From the NCBI RefSeq assembly GCF_015207505.1, contig NZ_JADEWT010000044.1:1-47140 (forward strand): a DNA stretch of 47,140 nucleotides, given 5' to 3'. The stretch is from Tychonema sp. LEGE 06208 (GTDB lineage: Bacteria; Cyanobacteriota; Cyanobacteriia; Cyanobacteriales; Microcoleaceae). Shown one piece after another: positions 7,853 through 29,882 of the stretch (positions are counted from its first letter, which is position 1; each line of letters starts with the position of its first letter). Made by a program: the position numbers and the translations under genes. The notes under the pieces were generated by a model. It saw only the letters and a list, made by a program, of their open reading frames with translations. It was not told the origin of the DNA and did no database searches.

Positions 7853-8557
7853 ATGACCTTTTTCAACGTCTCCGAACCCCTAATCCGCAGCAAACAGGAA
7901 CATCTCGACGTACAAGACCGATCGGGCTTGTTGCAACTAAACTGGCAAATTGGAAATATTACTCTTTTCTCAGGATTTTATACCCGGATTGACCAAACTT
8001 TTCTGCTTTGGGGTTTGGTGACGGCGGGGATTTTTTTCACGGCTCAATTTGTGCCGCTTAGTTGGAGCTTTCAGGCGATTCTGTGGTCAACACTGACGAT
8101 TATTGGCACTGCTGGGATGGCTGTGTTAACTTTGTTTTGGGTAAAAGTCGAGCGAGTTAGCTGGATTCTGTATTGTTGGGCGATGCTGATGATAACTGGT
8201 TTGGTGCTGACGGATTGCAGTATTTTTCTGGGTTGGGGTGGTTTGTTGCAGCACTTGTGCGATTTGTGGTTGGGGTTGAGCGCGATCGGCTATTTTTGTA
8301 CTGGACTCGGTTTGCGATCGCGCACTTTTATCGCGATCGGATTAGCTCATCTATTTGCGATCGGATTATTGCCTTTTGTCGCACCTTGGCAATATCTAAC
8401 CACAGGCATAATTATGGCCGGTTGTTTGCTGTTATTGTCTGAATTGCAGTGGGATATGCGATCGCCGATCGACAATACTTTGCTAAGCGAAGAACAGAAA
8501 GAATTTAACCGAATTCAACATCAACTGCGACAAATAAGCTCCACAGTCAACAAATAG
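7853..8557 (+). CDS. Conserved-type membrane protein, function unknown
   Basis: 234 residues. After about 45 polar residues there are about six hydrophobic segments suited to membrane helices: LLWGLVTAGIFFTAQFV, a long AILWSTL..VLTLFWV, WILYCWAMLMITGLVL, LWLGLSAIGYFCTGLGL, FIAIGLAHLFAIGLLPFV and LTTGIIMAGCLLLLSEL. The polar C-terminal tail (EEQKEFNRIQHQLRQI) is probably cytoplasmic and helical. No enzymatic motif was recognised. The ATG at 7853 was used; there is no obvious Shine-Dalgarno. It stands alone on this strand, between two gene-poor stretches. Confidence 0.75.
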   Translation: MTFFNVSEPLIRSKQEHLDVQDRSGLLQLNWQIGNITLFSGFYTRIDQTFLLWGLVTAGIFFTAQFVPLSWSFQAILWSTLTIIGTAGMAVLTLFWVKVERVSWILYCWAMLMITGLVLTDCSIFLGWGGLLQHLCDLWLGLSAIGYFCTGLGLRSRTFIAIGLAHLFAIGLLPFVAPWQYLTTGIIMAGCLLLLSELQWDMRSPIDNTLLSEEQKEFNRIQHQLRQISSTVNK

Positions 8558-9369
8558 GTCAAAAACAAACCACTTACTTTTCTTCGACTTTTAGCAAAAT
8601 GTGCATGAGACATAAACAATAATTATTGTGGGTAGGCATATATCTTGCCTTTGATTCGCTGTTCTGGCAAAGTCTAATAGCTGCAAATTGTAAAGTTTTT
8701 TGTACGACCGCTAACATTTTTCCAAAATCGTACAGAATAGAACGATACAGCATAAATAAACAACCAACTTTAGCCAGAACAGGTGTTTTTCTGTTTGACC
8801 TATAAATCGCCAACCATAGGAGAACGGTGTCCGGGAAGCGACTGGCGAACAATGCTGTAACTGCGGCGATAAAAGTTAATTCTGGTTGACCTTCGTGGTT
8901 AAAACAAAAAAAGTGGTGCAGGGTTTTTACCGTTTCCCCTGCTTTGCAATCTCCGAGGAGAGGCTAAACCCTCTACTAGAACAGTCTGAGGAGATTGGCA
9001 CAGAATTTGACAATTGGTCAGGCGGATTTTTGAGTCAGGCTGTTTAATAAAATTTAGAAAATGATCGCTTAGCAGCCTAGCAGGACTTACAATTAAATAA
9101 GTCCTGCTTTATCATAGGTTCGCAGTAAGGACTTTAGTCTACCCTCTTGAATTTATACCATTTATAAAAAATGTTGCAACAATAAAATTGTTGGGCGGAG
9201 TGAAACGGAGGGTTGTTTTGTTCACCCAATGTGTAAGGTGCGTCGCTATTAGATTGTCACTCTTTTTGAAAAATTTTCGATGTATCCACACCTACATATA
9301 CTGTTGCATTAATTTGGAAGATTGGTATTACTTGCTTAGCTTTTTACCTGTTAATGTAGCGCGCGCTGC
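8558..9369. other. Gene-free region with hairpins
   Basis: No reliable gene. A minus-strand open frame (8574-8852, TTG start) has no recognisable features. CAATCTCC (8947-8954) can pair with GGAGATTG (8990-8997), enclosing GAGAGG/CCTCT, which might be a small structured RNA. A perfect 11-bp hairpin is at 9079-9108, followed by a copy of the dispersed AGTAAGGACTTTAGTC motif (about 9124). Confidence 0.4.
9079..9112 (+). terminator. Perfect 11-bp hairpin, terminator-like
   Basis: AGCAGGACTTA (9079-9089) pairs with TAAGTCCTGCT (9098-9108) around an 8-nt loop, followed by TTAT. It might end a transcript from the structured stretch at 8947-8997 or be a dispersed palindrome; no upstream gene is close. 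Confidence 0.4.
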
Positions 9370-9474
9370 ATGGCACTTTGCCTAACTATAATTATGCCAC
9401 AATATACCACAGCCCGCGCCGCCATCGACATGGCAATCTACGACTGGCTGGGTAAAAAAGCAGGCTTGCCGCAT
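9370..9474 (+). pseudogene. Remnant of dipeptide epimerase / mandelate racemase-like gene
   Basis: The frame from about 9406 reads TTARAAIDMAIYDWLGKKAG followed by LP. This is the conserved capping-to-barrel segment of the dipeptide epimerase/muconate lactonizing enzyme (enolase superfamily) proteins. Everything before and after it is missing: the barrel with its catalytic lysines and metal ligands is gone. The frame runs without a stop into a fragment of a different protein (next entry), so a deletion seems to have joined two formerly neighbouring genes. Non-functional. Confidence 0.6.
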
Positions 9475-9733
9475 CACCCGCAGGTATCGATTCCGAGTTT
9501 GTTGAAAGTGGTTGAATTGTACGAAATGGTGGCGGCGGCGGGTGCTTTTGTAGGGGCAAAAGTGAGCGCGATCCGCCCTTAACACTCATCGCTTAAATGA
9601 GGCAGATGCGCTGTTAGCAATAGCTGAAATTCAAGCAGAAACGGGATTATCTTGTACCTATCCGGCGCGGTTTAGCGCGTTGGTGTTGCTGGGGGCGATC
9701 GACAATCGATCTGCTACAATCAGTTACAACTAG
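9475..9733 (+). pseudogene. Remnant of DUF1611 (DgcN-like) gene, frameshifted
   Basis: The reading frame continues as HPQVSIPSLLKVVELYEMVAA and then VGAKVSAI. It then shifts by one base to ALNTHRLNEADALLAI and ETGLSCTYPARF, ending at the TAG 9731-9733. Together this resembles the C-terminal part of DUF1611 proteins, which often lie beside dipeptide epimerases. The shift is explained by one extra C in GCGATCCGC (about 9568-9576), where GCGATCGC, a HIP1 site, would restore the frame. Family assignment is from memory of motifs. The gene is clearly broken. Confidence 0.55.
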
Positions 9734-9752
9734 CTAAGAGCTACAGAAAATT

Positions 9753-10163
9753 ATGACACAAAGCATTCAAGCAAAAGCACTGACACTCGGTGATGTCCAA
9801 ACAAAATTTAATCTACAATTGTCTGAAGACGAGCAATTTTTCAGAGAATGGATTGATGATTCGCCAGAAATCACAGACGCAGAAAAGCGATATTGAGACA
9901 AAGTAAATGTTGGGTATATTAACAGTGCCGAGTACCCCATGATAGAAGATACCGTAAAAGCTGAGTAACCCCAATCCTGATAGACCAACTTTTGGGCTTC
10001 TGACAAATGGCAGCAACTTCAGATTGATTAAATTGGTTAAATAAGACAATCCGCAGTACGCTTTATCTTATGAGTTCGTAATCGCGCCAAGGATTGTTAC
10101 GAAGTGTTTCGCATTTTGAAGCGCGTCGCTGGTATAATTTTTATTAACACCTCTTCTACTTAA
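9753..10163 (+). pseudogene. Broken restriction-endonuclease-like gene (cyanobacterial 'subunit R'-like family)
   Basis: An ATG at 9753 opens MTQSIQAKALTLGDVQTKFN and continues to an in-frame TGA at 9894-9896. The same frame resumes with DKVNVGYINSAEYPMIEDTV. Another frame then gives FGLLTNGSNFRLIKLVK to a TAA at 10042, followed by DNPQYALSYEF, and a further frame gives YEVFRILKRV. The order and motifs resemble a cyanobacterial family of PD-(D/E)XK-like proteins annotated as restriction endonuclease subunits. The usual middle of the protein is missing. At least one nonsense change, one internal deletion and frameshifts are needed to explain it. The family name is moderately certain; the decay is plain. 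Confidence 0.5.
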
Positions 10164-10172
10164 ATAGATAAT

Positions 10173-10688
10173 ATGGAACTAGATTCTGAAAATAACAATA
10201 AATTCAGTAAAGCTCACTTTGATTTTAAGAATTTGCCCCAACTCACCAACCCTTGGCGACAGCTAAATCTGCAAGGAGTAGCTTTAGGTTTGATTCGCTT
10301 GCCGGCTGGCGAGGGCTACACCTTTACTCACAGCCACGCAGAACAAGAAGAAGTCTATATTGTAGTTGAAGGCAAGGGCTTGATGGTTGTAGATGGGGAA
10401 CTATTGACACTTGAGGGCGGCGATATTGTGAGAGTTTCTCCTGCTGCAAAGAGAGCATTAAAAGCTGCTGAAAATACAGCTTTATTTGCGATCTGTACTG
10501 GAGGATTGGCCGCAGGTTATCCCAAGCAACCCAACGCGCGCTATCTGATAGATGATGGAATCCCCGATTATGACGATGTTCCGCCTTGGTATGAGGGAAA
10601 TCCCGAAATTGCCGAGAGAAATGCACGGTTAAAAGAAAGGATGTTGAAAGCCCAAGCCAAACGAGAAAGCCAACAGGAATCATCATGA
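10173..10688 (+). CDS. Cupin domain-containing protein
   Basis: 171 residues. The central cupin barrel (about 40-115) carries the metal-binding pattern FTHSHAEQEEVYIVVEGKG (two His, then Glu) and motif 2 LEGGDIVRVSPAAKRALKA, whose usual second-motif His is replaced by Lys or Arg. The C-terminal tail is charged and helical (ERNARLKERMLKAQAKRES). The substrate cannot be told from the sequence. The stop overlaps the next start by four bases (ATGA), so it is translationally coupled to the GNAT gene. It begins right after a degraded gene. Confidence 0.85.
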   Translation: MELDSENNNKFSKAHFDFKNLPQLTNPWRQLNLQGVALGLIRLPAGEGYTFTHSHAEQEEVYIVVEGKGLMVVDGELLTLEGGDIVRVSPAAKRALKAAENTALFAICTGGLAAGYPKQPNARYLIDDGIPDYDDVPPWYEGNPEIAERNARLKERMLKAQAKRESQQESS

Positions 10689-23513: not shown

Positions 23514-24131
23514 GTGAGTAATAGTGGAAAGTTCTTTAACGTCGCAAACCTGACTATCGGTGTACTAGGTTTGTTAGCGGCTGTTGGCGGTGCGGGAATT
23601 GCTATTGTTCAAGGTTGGCCGCCCCTGTTATTTGGACAAAATACTCGTTTTTCCTGCCAACTTCAGCCAGATACTCAGCGGGGTAGTGAAGTTTGGACTG
23701 TTATGTACCGTCACGATAAAGGTCAACAACCTTGGCTAAAAATGGTCACAACTTTAGGCAGTGATTATACGCCTGTAAGACGCTGCCAAATAATTTCTGA
23801 AACCTTGAACGGTTATCGCAAAGATGGTTTAATTAAGTTAGCTTATAGAGACGAGCCTAAGACGCCGAATCAATACGTGATTTGTGCTAAAACTAAGTTA
23901 AGTGGCGATGGTTGTCCGCTGGTGTTGACGTTGAATCCCGGTAGCGATACGCAGGCTTATCAAGCAATGCGAGATATGACTGAAAATTTGTTGAATGGTG
24001 GTAATGGGGTTTATCAAAATAGCGATGGTAAGTTGGCAACTTCTCAGTTTTCTCCGTCTTCGCCAGAGATTGATTTAACTCCTTTTTTGGCTGAAGAGGA
24101 TCGGATTGCTGGATCTAATTCTGCTAAGTGA
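23514..24131 (+). CDS. COP23-domain protein, membrane anchored or exported
   Basis: 205 residues, GTG start. A hydrophobic segment at about residues 11-32 (ANLTIGVLGLLAAVGGAGIA) acts as signal anchor. The remainder shows the COP23 pattern: TRFSCQLQPD, WTVMYRHDKGQQPWLKMV, RCQIISETLNGYRKDGLIKL, YVICAKTKLSGDGCPLVLTL, and four cysteines likely paired outside the cytoplasm. COP23 (circadian oscillating protein 23) was named in cyanobacteria; its activity is unknown. It stands alone between the HicB-like gene and an AGAAACCGGG palindrome. Confidence 0.85.
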   Translation: MSNSGKFFNVANLTIGVLGLLAAVGGAGIAIVQGWPPLLFGQNTRFSCQLQPDTQRGSEVWTVMYRHDKGQQPWLKMVTTLGSDYTPVRRCQIISETLNGYRKDGLIKLAYRDEPKTPNQYVICAKTKLSGDGCPLVLTLNPGSDTQAYQAMRDMTENLLNGGNGVYQNSDGKLATSQFSPSSPEIDLTPFLAEEDRIAGSNSAK

Positions 24132-24408: not shown

Positions 24409-25542
24409 TTATAGGTTACAACTTACAACTCTCTGCACGAGAGAAGAATATTTCTCTATGAAGATACCTCTATTGCCCAAACGACCTATTCGGGGATCAT
24501 CACCAACCGGGAGGTGGGCTGATGGTGCATTGGTATTGAAAGTTAGTTGAGAGTAATTCAACCATTCTCCTTTCTCTCCTTTCTGTTTCCAGCCGATCGC
24601 CTCAGCGTAAGGTACCCATACTTTTCTATCATACTCTTTAGTGCCACCAAGACTTTGATAAATCTGCTTCTGCACCGAAAAGCCGAAGCGTCCATCACTG
24701 TATTTTACCCAAAGTCGATCCATCGCCCGCAAATCTGGACAGGAAAAATTTTCGATATTTTCACTGTCTAGCCAACCTTCTTTTTGTCTACCCGCCACTT
24801 CTAACATTTTGTTAGCAGTTTCCTCATCTGCTTCTTTCCACTTCCCGGTCGCCAACAACTGTTCCAGTTTAGTATAGTCTGCCTTAGCAAGGGGTTGATT
24901 TTCCCAAGACTGATTTGCCAGATAAGTTTTAATTGGAATTCCCCTCGGCAATTTATCCTTCGCCTGCCCGTGAACTGCCACCACTTTACCGCTAGCATCT
25001 AAAACAGGCGCGCCACTTATCCCAACAGAAACTCCAGCTATATAATTAATTCCATAGCCCTCCGTCAAGACAACATTAATCCTCGATACTGAACCTTCCA
25101 AAAATTCCGGCGCTAAATCTTCGTTTTGAAGAACAGGAAAACCAGAAATATAGATTTTATGTCCTACTTTCAGCTCGTTAGAATCGCCAAGATTGACACT
25201 TTGATAAGGACAATTTTCCCCAGCAGACTTAAACGTCACCACTGCTAAATCGTAAGTAGGACTTGTTTGAATACTGTCAGTTGTATGACCTTGTTGATCC
25301 TGATAAGTTTGCAGTTTCAAACTATAGCCTTTAACCACATGACCGGCCGTGAGAACAGTGCAAACTCCCTTTTTTCCCGGTACAATAAACCCGGTACCGT
25401 GTCCGCCTTGATTTTCGTAGTAAATCAGCACAAGGCTCTTGTTAACTGTTTCAGCAATTTCTTGAGATGACTTCTGCTGGGAGCAACTTGTTAAGGAGAG
25501 TCCGATGAGGGTAAAAATTAGCCAGCAAGAGCGGGATTTCAT
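24409..25542 (-). CDS. Trypsin-like serine protease with C-terminal GUN4 domain, lipoprotein
   Basis: 377 residues from ATG 25542. The N-terminal lipobox LIFTLIGLSLTSC predicts export and lipidation. A trypsin-like domain follows: GHGTGFIVPG, CTVLTAGHVVKG (catalytic His), SPTYDLAVVTFKS (Asp), then GVSVGISGAPVLDASGKVVA, where Ser of GISGAP is the expected nucleophile. The last 150 residues are GUN4-like: DYTKLEQLLATGKWKEADEE, CPDLRAMDRLWVKYSDGRFG, FSVQKQIYQSLGGTKEYDRK, WLNYSQLTFNTNAPSAHLP. Free GUN4 binds porphyrins in chlorophyll synthesis; GUN4 domains fused to sensors or proteases are common in filamentous cyanobacteria, and their ligands are uncertain. The frame continues 34 codons upstream, but the lipoprotein start is preferred. 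Confidence 0.88.
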   Translation of the reverse strand: MKSRSCWLIFTLIGLSLTSCSQQKSSQEIAETVNKSLVLIYYENQGGHGTGFIVPGKKGVCTVLTAGHVVKGYSLKLQTYQDQQGHTTDSIQTSPTYDLAVVTFKSAGENCPYQSVNLGDSNELKVGHKIYISGFPVLQNEDLAPEFLEGSVSRINVVLTEGYGINYIAGVSVGISGAPVLDASGKVVAVHGQAKDKLPRGIPIKTYLANQSWENQPLAKADYTKLEQLLATGKWKEADEETANKMLEVAGRQKEGWLDSENIENFSCPDLRAMDRLWVKYSDGRFGFSVQKQIYQSLGGTKEYDRKVWVPYAEAIGWKQKGEKGEWLNYSQLTFNTNAPSAHLPVGDDPRIGRLGNRGIFIEKYSSLVQRVVSCNL

Positions 25543-25879
25543 AGATTTTGCTGATAGTTTTAGGGAATAAGAGAGTAAATGAATAATTTCTACAACAGTG
25601 ATGTGTTGTTTTCTAGGTAGGAGATTAACATGAAAGTATACCATTTTTTTGAAGTGGTAGCTACGGGTAAGGACACGGTAGTGCCCAGAGGTGACAAGTT
25701 AAGATTCAGGACTTACGCACTCCGACTAAGAAACCGGGTTTTTACCGAATTTGTGGACAGCAACGAAAGAGTTTTGTAAAAAACCCGGTTTCTGGGCCTC
25801 ATGCGTAAGTTTTTACAATTAAATTCCCCATTGAACCCAAGATTAGGTAAAATTATTTGGGTGTCTGAGGATAAACTAT
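25543..25879. other. Divergent intergenic region between protease-GUN4 and PAD-like genes
   Basis: It contains the AGAAACCGGG element at 25729-25793 with its outer arms (GGACTTACGCACTCC, and CATGCGTAAGT on the right). No gene is seen. Promoters for both divergent genes must lie here but none stands out. Confidence 0.5.
25729..25793. repeat. AGAAACCGGG-family palindrome
   Basis: AGAAACCGGGTTTTTACC pairs with AAAAAACCCGGTTTCT. The outer flanks GACTTACGCACTCC and GCGTAAGT are also complementary. Confidence 0.8.
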
Positions 25880-28507
25880 ATGCGCTTAGTTAAATATATT
25901 ACGATCGCCATTGTCAATGCTTTTGGTGTCGTCATCGGTATTATTTGGGTTGCTGTGCCCGCAACAGTGGCTCAACCTTCCCTCAACTACCAACTCGCAC
26001 TCTCAGGGCGACAGTCAGACGGCGACACTCCGCAATCGCTCCCGGAACTCTACAAATTGCGCGATCGCCTCAAGGTAGAATTAGATAACAGCGCGAAAAA
26101 TACCGACAGCAACCTGTTTTCCCCAGAACATTGGAACCGCCAGCAATCTAAAAATCTGGCCGAGGAACTCCAAAACGCTCAAAGTCAGATTCAAACAGAA
26201 GAAAGAGCTAAAAATAATTGGGACGATGCTGCTAAAATAGCCGCCAGAGCTGTTGTAATTGGACGCACTTCTAAAGCCGACCCTGCTACTTGGGAAGAGT
26301 CACAACGCCTGTGGCAAATGGCGCTCAACCACCTGCGACTCATCCCTCACGGTTCTTTTTTGGCTGAGCGGGCGATCGACAAAACCATCGAATATCAAGG
26401 AAACCTCACTGTCGCTACCTACGAATGGCAAGTAGCACGTTCTCAACAGAAAATTAGAGCCGAGGAAGAACAGGTAAGAGAGCTAGCCAGAAAAGAGCAA
26501 GAGAAAAAAGAATTCGCCCGCCGAGAAATAGAGAGAAAAGAACAAGAGAAAAAAGAACTCGCCCGCCAAGAAATAGAAAGACAAGAATTTGCCAAACAAG
26601 AATTAATCCGCCACGAACGAGAAAAACAAGAATTCGCCCGCCAAGAACTAATCCGCCAAGAACAAGAAAAGCAGGAATTAGCCCGCCAAGAATTAGAAAA
26701 GCAGGAACGAGAAAAACAAGAATTAGCCCGCCAAGAATTAGAAAAGCAAGAACTAGCCCGCCAAGAATTAGAAAAGCAAGAATTAGCCCGCCAAGAACTC
26801 GCCCGTCAAGAATTAGAAAAGCAGGAATTAGCCCGCCAAGAACTAGCCCGCCAAGAATTAGAAATAAATCAGCAAGCAACTCCTCAACCAACTCCTGAAT
26901 CAACCGCAACTGCTACTCCCGCCCCTGTAAACCTCGCAGCCTCGCAGACCAACTTCTTCTTTGCGGGAGATACTAACAGAGACGGCGAAATTAATCAACT
27001 AGACGAAGCCGGAAAAGAACAATGGTCATTGTCTAGCGGCGCGCTAATTGTGTTTAACGATCCCAAGAACGATCGCACAAAAATAGCCCCTTGGAAACAA
27101 ACCAAAGTTAGCGTCCCCCGCCGCGCAGCCATGCTTTCTCAAGTTAACTTAACTTTGTCTGAAAACTTCAAAACCTCTCAATTATTTATCACTGCTGATA
27201 GCATCGCCAGCCCTCATATCAACGTTTTTCAGAAAATAGGCGATGGATGGCAAGCTGTAGATATATCCGGTACAAAACCCCTAGTTTTCAGCACGAATAT
27301 TATTTTAGGTGTCGAAGCAAAACAATTTGCCGATCGCAATTGGAACGGCAAAGTCAATCTCAAAGCAACTGCCGAAAACAACGGTCAACAAATCGCCGCC
27401 ACCACCATCCAAATGGGTGTCAGTCCTTGGATAATACCAGCCAATACCGCACCAGTCACAGAAGTTCAAGTCAGCGACAGAGGGGCCGCCAACAGTGAAT
27501 TTATCTCGCAACTGAAACAAGCAGTAGAACCCACTGGCGCTCAATTAAAAATTATCCAGGGCGGTAATGCTTGGATGCAAAATATTCAGAAAAACGGTTA
27601 CATTCAACTTCCCGAAAAATCTGATATACGCCAATTGAATGTGGCTCTCAAAAGCAATGACGAACCCAATAAAAACCCGCCGGATAAATCAAGTGAAGAG
27701 CGTAACTTGAGAGTAATTAAAATTGGCAACTCTCGCGACGATAACCCCGTAAGTCAGTGGTCAAATGGCTACGGAAATTTGCAGGTGACACCGCCGATTC
27801 CCGGATATCCAATGGGTCGAGCTTATTACGGAAATTCGGGAAATGCTAGTTTTAATCCAGAGGTACTTGATTTTATTCAAGCTCAAAGAATTCAAGGGCC
27901 TGCAGTGGATATTGATACTTCTTGGCTTTTGACTCGCCAAGTCGATGAAATTATCAATTTTATTCCCAGTCAAACTCCCGGAAAATATGTAATGGCGATC
28001 GCCAGTCCAGAAGCCGGAGTAAAGCTGTTGGAAGAATTGGCGGGGAAAGGTTACGGCGAGGTTACTATCAATCGCGGTTTGAGCAATGAAACTACAGTCA
28101 GCGCCGCCTTGAAAAATCAAGCTTTAATTCAACACAACCTCAATTTGCAAAAGCAGAAAATCAACCCGATATTAGACAAGTTGAAAAGAGAGTTTTCACT
28201 GACAGACGACCAAATCGTTCAAGTTCCAGCGATGTTTGGCTACAGCGGTTATGCTTGGTGGCCAAATATGGTCAATTCGGTACCAGTCAACGGCAATTTG
28301 TTAGTTTCTAATCCCCGCGGCCCGATGATTGACGGCAGAGATTACACTCAAGAAAGATTGCGCCAACTGCTGCTTCCTGCTGGTGTTAGTGTGAGTTTTC
28401 TAAACGATCGCTATTATCAAGAATTGAAAGGAAACGTGCAGTCGGCAACGAATACTGTGAGGAAGCCTGAACTGCAGCCTTTTTGGCAGACTTTGCCTAA
28501 TAATTAG
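25880..28507 (+). CDS. Protein-arginine deiminase-like pseudoenzyme with long coiled coil, exported
   Basis: 875 residues. Signal peptide at about 1-31 (IIWVAVPATVAQ). A helical domain spans about 50-190, a Glu/Arg/Gln-rich repeat coiled coil 191-330 (QELARQELEK units), and a Pro/Thr linker 331-350. The rest aligns with protein-arginine deiminases (PAD): FAGDTNRDGEINQLDEAGK (Ca-binding-like), GVSPWIIPANTAP, WMQNIQKNGYIQLP (565-578), YGNLQVTPPIPGYPMGR, SWLLTRQVDEIINFIP (681-696), FPNMVN-like WWPNMVN, GPMIDGR, VSFLNDRYY, ATNTVRKP. PADs convert peptidyl-arginine to citrulline. Of the four catalytic residues of human PAD4 (Asp350, His471, Asp473, Cys645), the aligned residues here are Asn568, Gln687, Asp689 and Ser855. 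Three are lost, so deiminase activity is not expected. A binding role is inferred. Confidence 0.85.
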   Translation: MRLVKYITIAIVNAFGVVIGIIWVAVPATVAQPSLNYQLALSGRQSDGDTPQSLPELYKLRDRLKVELDNSAKNTDSNLFSPEHWNRQQSKNLAEELQNAQSQIQTEERAKNNWDDAAKIAARAVVIGRTSKADPATWEESQRLWQMALNHLRLIPHGSFLAERAIDKTIEYQGNLTVATYEWQVARSQQKIRAEEEQVRELARKEQEKKEFARREIERKEQEKKELARQEIERQEFAKQELIRHEREKQEFARQELIRQEQEKQELARQELEKQEREKQELARQELEKQELARQELEKQELARQELARQELEKQELARQELARQELEINQQATPQPTPESTATATPAPVNLAASQTNFFFAGDTNRDGEINQLDEAGKEQWSLSSGALIVFNDPKNDRTKIAPWKQTKVSVPRRAAMLSQVNLTLSENFKTSQLFITADSIASPHINVFQKIGDGWQAVDISGTKPLVFSTNIILGVEAKQFADRNWNGKVNLKATAENNGQQIAATTIQMGVSPWIIPANTAPVTEVQVSDRGAANSEFISQLKQAVEPTGAQLKIIQGGNAWMQNIQKNGYIQLPEKSDIRQLNVALKSNDEPNKNPPDKSSEERNLRVIKIGNSRDDNPVSQWSNGYGNLQVTPPIPGYPMGRAYYGNSGNASFNPEVLDFIQAQRIQGPAVDIDTSWLLTRQVDEIINFIPSQTPGKYVMAIASPEAGVKLLEELAGKGYGEVTINRGLSNETTVSAALKNQALIQHNLNLQKQKINPILDKLKREFSLTDDQIVQVPAMFGYSGYAWWPNMVNSVPVNGNLLVSNPRGPMIDGRDYTQERLRQLLLPAGVSVSFLNDRYYQELKGNVQSATNTVRKPELQPFWQTLPNN
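26565..26862. repeat. In-frame tandem repeats encoding the coiled coil
   Basis: Units such as GCCCGCCAAGAATTAGAAAA (15-18 bp variants, in multiples of three) recur about 15 times and encode ARQELEKQE-type repeats. The near-identical nucleotide units toward the 3' end imply recent expansion by slippage or unequal recombination. Confidence 0.8.
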
Positions 28508-28900: not shown

Positions 28901-28970
28901 TGACCTTAATAGGCAAGTCGCGATCGCGTAAAATGTCTAAAAGCAGTATTTGTACAAAAAATTTAGCCCC

Positions 28971-29882
28971 ATGAACGACGAACAGGAAAAAAATCAAATT
29001 TTGACCCAGCAACCAGAAACAGTTTCCACAGCCAGCGATGAGTTCCCGAACGCAGAAATGGTTAGTGCCAATTCAACAGCAGAACCGACAGAAACTCCCG
29101 CTGAAATTGTGGCAAACGAAGATATTCCAACAACAATCAACGAAACAGAAACAATTCCAATTTCCGCAGAATATCCGCCTGAAACCAGTCAATTTGTCAG
29201 TGATTCCTATCCCACAACTCACACAGCAAATCCTGAACCAAAACCAACTCAATTTTGGCAAATTTTGGCTATTTTTTTCAGTGGAATGTTAGTCGGTTCT
29301 GTGCTCAGTCTCGGTAGTTTCCTAGCGTGGAAAATGTATCAGGAAAGAGCGAACATTCAAATCAGACTGCCCGCTGACGTACCCCTGCGGGAAAGCCCTC
29401 CGCCTGTCCCTGAAGCGCGCCTCAACCGCCGGCCCGGACTTCCCCCAGCACCCCAGCAGACACTGCCCCTCACCATCCCGCCGTCGGCCAGTCAGACTCC
29501 AATTCCCTCGCTCTCAGGCGTTCCGCCACTTGCTTCGCCGTTGCCGAAATCTTCTCCATCTCCTTCTGGCGCTGCGGTGGAAACTCCTGTAACTGAGCGA
29601 GTTAACTTTCCAGCAGGTGCTACGGGAACTACTCTCAATAATAGTTTGCGAGCCAATATATCCAAGCGCTACTTGGTAGAATGCAATAGCGGCCAAAGCA
29701 TGACAATCAAGGTTCAAGAAGGTCAAGTTAACGCGGCAATCACTGCTCCTAACGGTGAAAAAATCGGCACTGCAGATAGCGCGAGTCAGTGGCAAGGTCA
29801 GCTACCAAGCAGCGGCGATTATACTATAGAAATTTCGGGCGATCGCCAAGCAAACTACGTTGTTAAAATAGAAGTAAAATAG
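28971..29882 (+). CDS. Membrane-anchored protein with C-terminal PPC-like beta domain
   Basis: 303 residues from ATG 28971 (a TTG seven codons upstream is also in frame). The first 95 residues are acidic, Glu/Thr-rich and probably disordered and cytoplasmic. One membrane helix follows (FWQILAIFFSGMLVGSVLSL). A Pro/Ser-rich spacer of about 95 residues then leads to a C-terminal domain of about 90 residues: RVNFPAGATGTTLNNSL, KRYLVECNSGQSMTIKV, ITAPNGEKIG, WQGQLPSSGDYTIEISG. That pattern resembles bacterial pre-peptidase C-terminal (PPC)-like beta-sandwich domains. The architecture suggests a periplasmic binding domain on a tether. Function is unknown. It lies downstream of the PAD-like gene in the same direction, but about 460 bp of repeats separate them. 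Confidence 0.75.
   Translation: MNDEQEKNQILTQQPETVSTASDEFPNAEMVSANSTAEPTETPAEIVANEDIPTTINETETIPISAEYPPETSQFVSDSYPTTHTANPEPKPTQFWQILAIFFSGMLVGSVLSLGSFLAWKMYQERANIQIRLPADVPLRESPPPVPEARLNRRPGLPPAPQQTLPLTIPPSASQTPIPSLSGVPPLASPLPKSSPSPSGAAVETPVTERVNFPAGATGTTLNNSLRANISKRYLVECNSGQSMTIKVQEGQVNAAITAPNGEKIGTADSASQWQGQLPSSGDYTIEISGDRQANYVVKIEVK

Follow-up and report, generated by a model that had tools for sequence, protein, structure and literature searches.

The window, that is, the whole 47,140-nucleotide stretch of DNA analysed here, carries on its forward strand an open reading frame at positions 25880–28507 that runs for 875 codons from an ATG start codon and contains no internal stops. Reading-frame analysis, Pfam and phmmer together identify its product as an 875-residue putative pseudoenzyme with the fold of the protein-arginine deiminases (PADs) and an export-signal-like start. 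Residues 506–869 (27395–28486, + strand) match Pfam family PF03068 with an E-value of 5.9e-58 and a score of 197.2 bits, against a curated cut-off of 25, and this segment is thus a homologous PAD_C domain. Human PAD2 of known structure matches a somewhat larger segment, residues 471–874 (phmmer E-value 6.9e-42). The AlphaFold model of residues 350–875 is of good quality (mean pLDDT 88.1, pTM 0.86) and its top Foldseek match is human PAD4 (PDB entry 5n0z; E-value 6.0e-47, TMq 0.87), which bears out the conserved PAD fold proposed in the initial annotation; all of the top 50 PDB matches listed are PADs. The PAD_C domain is preceded by a degenerate PAD_M-like middle domain (residues 356–505; 26945–27394, + strand), which can be aligned and modelled yet stays below the detection level of Pfam. 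A Pfam PAD_M match is obtained for 18 of the 29 rows of our full-length alignment, the window protein not being one of them. No PAD_N domain was found in the window protein, and its PAD_C match is the single one in its genome.

The catalytic tetrad Asp350–His471–Asp473–Cys645 of PAD4 reads Asn–Gln–Asp–Ser in the window protein. Apart from Asp350, Glu353, Glu411, Gln349 and the residues aligned by phmmer, PAD4 residues are given the numbers that we take them to have. In the phmmer alignment the Asp, His, Asp and Cys residues of human PAD2 stand against Asn568 (codon AAT, 27581–27583), Gln687 (codon CAA, 27938–27940), Asp689 (codon GAT, 27944–27946) and Ser855 (codon TCG, 28442–28444), all on the + strand, and the four columns fall in the same places when the protein is aligned by MAFFT with intact cyanobacterial PADs. 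Both agree with the initial annotation, in which the replacement of the first Asp, the His and the Cys and the retention of the second Asp had been noted. Gln854 (28439–28441, + strand), the equivalent of His644, lies beside the nucleophile position, and the entire 875-residue chain is devoid of cysteine. These substitutions are not sequencing errors, since the same states recur in separate assemblies: Gln687 is present in all 27 copies from the window's genus and Ser855 in all 26 that are readable. Asn568 occurs in just four of the 27 copies, and the Asp-to-Asn exchange is therefore a local variation. Of the three replacements originally reported, the loss of Cys thus holds for a whole family of genomes and the His-to-Gln and Cys-to-Ser exchanges are fixed in the genus, whereas the Asp-to-Asn exchange varies within it. 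Human PADI4 carrying the C645S mutation serves as an inactive mutant (PMC3107201), which supports our expectation that the window protein does not citrullinate.

The calcium sites are affected as well. In PMC11402830, Glu353 and Glu411 are given as the Ca1 glutamates of PADI4, and Ca1 and Ca2 are described as creating the active site of PADI2 and PADI4. Among the Ca1 ligands Gln349, Glu353 and Glu411, the first is kept in the window protein as Gln567, while the glutamates are replaced by Lys571 (27590–27592, + strand) and Gln635 (27782–27784, + strand); both exchanges, E353K and E411Q, are present in 26 of 26 genus rows. Asp594 (27659–27661, + strand), close to a loop of low pLDDT, takes the position of Arg372 according to the alignment and the numbering that we assume; this arginine is a substrate residue. 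Across the 26 genus rows the position holds Ser 19 times, Asp three times, Leu and Asn once each and Arg twice, and is thus changed in 24. The Ca3–5 loop of the PAD_M-like domain (residues 393–420; 27056–27139, + strand) is eroded and has low pLDDT. It retains one to three acidic residues in the window's genus, too few for an acidic calcium-binding loop, compared with 8–10 in Okeania, 7–9 in Planktothrix, 6–7 in Kamptonema and 5–6 and 4–8 in two groups of intact PADs. What remains is an EF-like motif, DTNRDGEINQLD (residues 364–375; 26969–27004, + strand), which by our reading is the equivalent of Ca6. Each acid or Asn position of its pattern D364-x-N366-x-D368-G...D375 is kept in all 26 genus rows, so that a Ca6-type motif is probably preserved throughout the genus. 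Calcium binding, one of the functions for which the protein was initially thought to be retained, therefore finds a candidate site in this motif, while both Ca1 glutamates are gone and the acidic loop is eroded.

The losses are selective. In the 43 intact rows, 41 columns are near-invariant, defined as one residue in at least 95% of the rows. Six of these are kept in fewer than half of the genus rows (Glu353, Arg372, Glu411, His471, His644 and Cys645), and all six belong to Ca1 or to the active site and its immediate surroundings. The corresponding hypergeometric probability is about 6e-6, for a set of eight functional columns that was picked knowing the losses. By the same rule Kamptonema has lost four columns and Planktothrix nine. 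The window's genus shows the clearest pattern, because several of the Planktothrix losses (Gly632, Pro639, Pro674, Val798 and Arg861) are not at known active-site positions. Glu353, Glu411 and Arg372 are all retained by the intact two-domain relatives (17 of 17 rows). Counting cysteines over the last 520 residues gives exactly one for 17 of the 18 intact two-domain cyanobacterial rows and four for L049, against none for the 26 genus rows and none for 50 of the 55 family rows. The other five family rows (L121, L145, L048, L081 and L082) hold a cysteine elsewhere in this segment, which could conceivably act as a displaced thiol.

Alternatively, the pocket might have been kept to bind peptidyl-arginine or citrulline without turnover, making the protein an extracellular arginine-recognition module. 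Trp347, Asp473, Glu474 and Asn648 are indeed kept in all 26 genus rows. The state of the Okeania/Trichodesmium/Hydrocoleum group is closer still to such a function: Cys-to-Asp is the sole exchange that takes any of the 41 columns below half, 12 of 13 rows keep Trp347, Asp350, Glu353, Arg372, Glu411, His471 and Asp473 together (the exception, L132 from Trichodesmium erythraeum, has Lys at Glu353), and the new acid would fit a binding site. However, His471, both Ca1 glutamates and, in 24 of 26 rows, Arg372 are missing from the window's genus, and Asp350 is missing in this species. As Ca1 and Ca2 build the active site in PADI2 and PADI4, the pocket seems to have been dismantled here. Binding of arginine peptides, also suggested initially, is therefore weak as an explanation for the window protein, in which an arginine-binding pocket is unlikely; in Okeania and Trichodesmium such a pocket is possible, and a reader function is most credible on that branch, where Asp replaces Cys and most of the pocket is intact. 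As a whole we consider this explanation improbable. The same holds for its historical version, equally doubtful, in which the family would have turned from a writer of citrulline into an extracellular reader of arginine. Okeania and Trichodesmium would then have kept the pocket and the Ca1 ligands, and the Asp that took the place of the Cys would give the guanidinium a third acidic neighbour; the window's genus would have gone on to discard the pocket and to use the fold, carried by a long rigid helix, as a structural component of the filament surface. A structural role of the window protein, also put forward initially, is plausible.

A PAD_C match is found in 57 of the 61 genomes of the window's family versus 24 of 386 sampled cyanobacterial genomes. 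The family, which we call Microcoleaceae, includes Microcoleus, Tychonema, Kamptonema, Okeania, Trichodesmium, Hydrocoleum, Planktothrix and Lyngbya aestuarii; its naming is based on loci with identical PAD_C, and the named scan covers the best 80 of 141 confirmed loci, with distant PADs under-sampled. The four family genomes with no PAD_C match (G015, G023, G029 and G446) have completeness values of 87, 96, 55 and 92%, and in the window's genus the gene is present in 27 of 29 genomes. At position 855 the 57 family copies have 38 Ser, 13 Asp, two Thr, two Ala and one Met; the remaining copy, from G003, is unreadable owing to a run of N (the printed Leu lies past the gap). The catalytic cysteine is thus absent from all 56 readable copies. 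Position 568 is Asp in 38, Gly in ten, Asn in four, Glu in four and a gap in one, position 687 is Gln in 29, His in 25 and Asn in three, and position 689 is Asp in 56 and Ser in one. Outside the family all 14 tallied genomes have D-H-D-C. This tally leaves out G051 (locus L006), in which the gene has an internal stop and likewise reads D-H-D-C.

We calculated a tree from 99 PAD_C rows with the four catalytic columns masked, drawn from 175 loci with a PAD match after removal of duplicates, of rows gapped at a catalytic column and of L006, L091 and L120. All 55 family rows form a single clade (SH-aLRT 99), and of the 44 rows outside it 43 have the intact D-H-D-C set and L140 alone has D-H-D-S. 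In a smaller tree of 43 rows the family clade (24 rows) has a support of 100/98. The nucleophile, missing throughout the family, was most simply lost at its base. Further losses of catalytic, substrate and calcium residues differed from genus to genus. The fewest changes on the 99-row tree comprise two losses of Cys, five of Asp350 and two of His471. A single and a repeated loss of the cysteine are both compatible with the data, given these two losses on the one hand and, on the other, a single clade of all 25 dead rows including L140 that is not rejected (p-AU 0.199). The serine codons at position 855 are of the TCN type in Microcoleus and Kamptonema and of the AGY type in Planktothrix, which fits either separate losses or drift through Thr. 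L140, from Oscillatoriaceae cyanobacterium M7585_C2015_266, lies outside the main clade, has Lys at Glu353 and Gln at Glu411, and possibly represents a second loss of the cysteine.

These distributions also bear on the idea that the old active site performs a different chemistry, based on a Ser or Asp that has replaced the Cys. Two groups have a fixed residue at position 855 (Ser in 26 of 26 and Asp in 13 of 13) and retain Asp473–Glu474. Against this, the His was lost in the same lineage that carries the window's Ser, and the replacement differs among genera (Ser, Asp, Thr, Met and Ala) and even within Planktothrix (nine Ser and one Thr). Such varied replacements are more readily explained by relaxed constraint than by a shared new mechanism, and a new enzyme is in our judgement very unlikely.

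For PAD_C, the window's genus has a median pairwise dN/dS of 0.180 (325 pairs), Okeania/Trichodesmium one of 0.108, Planktothrix one of 0.081 and Kamptonema one of 0.169 (three pairs), as obtained by Nei and Gojobori counting from non-independent pairs, every one of which falls within the dS limits of 0.05–1.5. Two intact groups have medians of 0.140 and 0.117. The comparison with active PADs put forward in the initial annotation thus places the genus slightly above the intact groups and far from neutrality: constraint is slightly weaker there, yet the gene is maintained, as medians of 0.08–0.18 imply. Decay of the gene, or a sequencing artefact, could account for the variation of Asp350-to-Asn and of the Arg372 loop within the genus and for a single split copy. 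It is nevertheless hardly tenable in view of the many separate assemblies with the same states, the open frames, these dN/dS values and the presence in 57 of 61 genomes. The split copy, L077 in G429 (about 8378–10668), is the only one seen in the family; its PAD gene is divided over two frames of 557 and 178 amino acids and may be a pseudogene or an assembly error. Together with the four genomes with no match it suggests that the gene may not be strictly required.

Pseudoenzymes commonly regulate an active relative, and the protein could act on an active PAD of its own cell as a dominant-negative or regulatory partner. Among the 57 family genomes with a match, however, no active PAD was found in the same cell: 56 contain just one PAD_C match, and in the last, G429, one gene is split over two frames. 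The fold has thus stayed under purifying selection where the genome offers no other PAD_C match. We regard this role as scarcely credible; an active PAD of neighbours or hosts could conceivably be the target instead.

The N-terminus of the window protein (residues 1–31; 25880–25972, + strand) resembles a signal peptide, as read directly from the sequence, and ends in ...VPATVA followed by Gln. A similar start, near-constant across genera, is present in 27 of the 29 rows of the full-length alignment; the two exceptions are L166 and L147, intact relatives whose sequences were read from a later Met codon onward. The signal-like segment (25880–25975) seems unusually alike across genera, perhaps beyond what export needs. 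It is followed by a helical domain (residues ~50–190; 26027–26449, + strand), which resembles parts of three further proteins encoded in this genome (E-values 1.4e-20, 3.5e-7 and 5.1e-4) and for which the full-length model has helices at 54–73, 82–128 and 135–153. In one of these three proteins, at L002 (733–2037, − strand), the helical domain is fused to a Beta-lactamase2 serine hydrolase.

Between the helical domain and the PAD_M-like domain lies a repeat rich in Glu, Gln, Arg and Lys (residues ~191–330; 26450–26869, + strand), built on tandem DNA repeats of 15–75 bases and predicted to be helical with a period of five. The initial annotation saw a long repetitive coiled coil here. A coiled coil, and with it an oligomerization device, is not supported, as there is no heptad signal: the hydrophobic power at period 3.5 is 0.07 (shuffled mean 0.21) against 5.89 at period 5, and 15 of 39 hydrophobic residues fall on the best a/d register, itself 40 of the 140 positions. 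The full-length AlphaFold model is weak (mean pLDDT 65.7) and draws a single helix over residues 162–327, whose block means drop below 70 at about residue 251 and to about 50 toward its end. With a rise of 1.5 Å per residue this helix, if continuous, would be ~25 nm long, and the repeat looks in this model like a single charged helix. The linker is 129–213 residues long in the window's genus and 40–57 in the other family rows measured. Since it is genus-specific, the charged helix does not explain the retention of the protein throughout the family.

The gene neighbourhood gives no clear hint of a partner, as no neighbour is common to all genera among the 29 loci compared. The widest neighbour, near six loci of Kamptonema, Okeania, Trichodesmium and Planktothrix (three members tested), is a response-regulator protein, and was set aside as a clue to function because its domain is common and its distances vary. 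Inside the genus pntB and putA (and, by our reading, pntA) are frequent neighbours and belong to ordinary metabolism. Upstream of the PAD gene in the window lies a homolog of the circadian oscillating protein COP23 (23514–24131, + strand), which is also found upstream of the intact PAD of two Oscillatoria (L137 and L138) and in Tychonema L114. The protein encoded at 24409–25644 (− strand) combines a trypsin-like protease domain with a GUN4 domain (Pfam E-values 1.8e-19 and 5.9e-41), and a homolog adjoins the PAD gene in L108 and L114. Downstream, 28950–29882 (+ strand) encodes a 310-residue protein that has a single hydrophobic segment and is Pro-rich in places, and for which no Pfam family exceeds its cut-off; in Microcoleus loci it sits between the PAD gene and putA.

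Taken together, we consider the window protein an exported pseudoenzyme from a two-domain (PAD_M-like plus PAD_C) lineage of cyanobacterial PADs that serves as a binding or assembly module, with a probability of roughly 0.7. It has a homologous PAD fold, has lost catalytic and calcium residues and is retained across its family under purifying selection; export, lack of citrullination and a binding or scaffold role are what these sequences point to. The initial proposal of an exported pseudoenzyme kept by selection is in line with the signal-like start, the missing nucleophile and His and the low dN/dS. The N-terminal helical domain and the genus-only helix would hold the Cys-free propeller up to ~25 nm away from its base, the propeller would act in the periplasm, envelope or sheath, and the remaining EF-like motif would bind one stabilizing calcium ion.

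The nearest intact relatives are the two-domain PADs of Zarconia (L147), M59 (L166), Oscillatoria (L137 and L138) and Geitlerinema (L152). They are D-H-D-C, and the long charged helix is absent from those sequences that were read; the Zarconia and M59 proteins also carry the N-terminal helical domain, as judged by eye. The PADI of Cyanothece sp. 8801 is described in Cummings 2021 (PMC8826395) as a three-domain protein with all catalytic residues and calcium-dependent activity. It shares homologous PAD_M and PAD_C domains with the window protein, and the Nostocales type, which we take to be three-domain, clusters apart in both trees. The main text of that paper does not name Planktothrix, Trichodesmium, Arthrospira, Okeania, Lyngbya, Microcoleus or Oscillatoria. 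A search of the open-access literature, with subscription journals and supplements outside its scope, returned no description of an inactive cyanobacterial PAD, and the clade is apparently an undescribed bacterial PAD pseudoenzyme in that literature. It would represent a large, maintained, nucleophile-less PAD clade outside mammals, whose genes bear the name protein-arginine deiminase by homology but probably do not encode enzymes. Its sister genera show graded states, from loss of the Cys alone to loss of the pocket and of calcium sites, that allow direct tests of how a fold passes from enzyme to binding module.

The nearest analogue is mammalian PADI6, with a separate origin and different residues lost. 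According to PMC11402830 and the preprint PMC13060343, PADI6 is inactive in vitro, has its Ca1 glutamates replaced (Ala362 and Met420), does not bind calcium and is a scaffold component of the oocyte lattices. Both proteins keep the PAD fold with both Ca1 glutamates replaced. PADI6 retains both Asp residues and the His and has its cysteine displaced, whereas the window protein has no Cys at all. PADI6 is furthermore a cytoplasmic three-domain protein and one of several mammalian paralogs, while the window protein has a signal-like start and no PAD_N domain was found in it.
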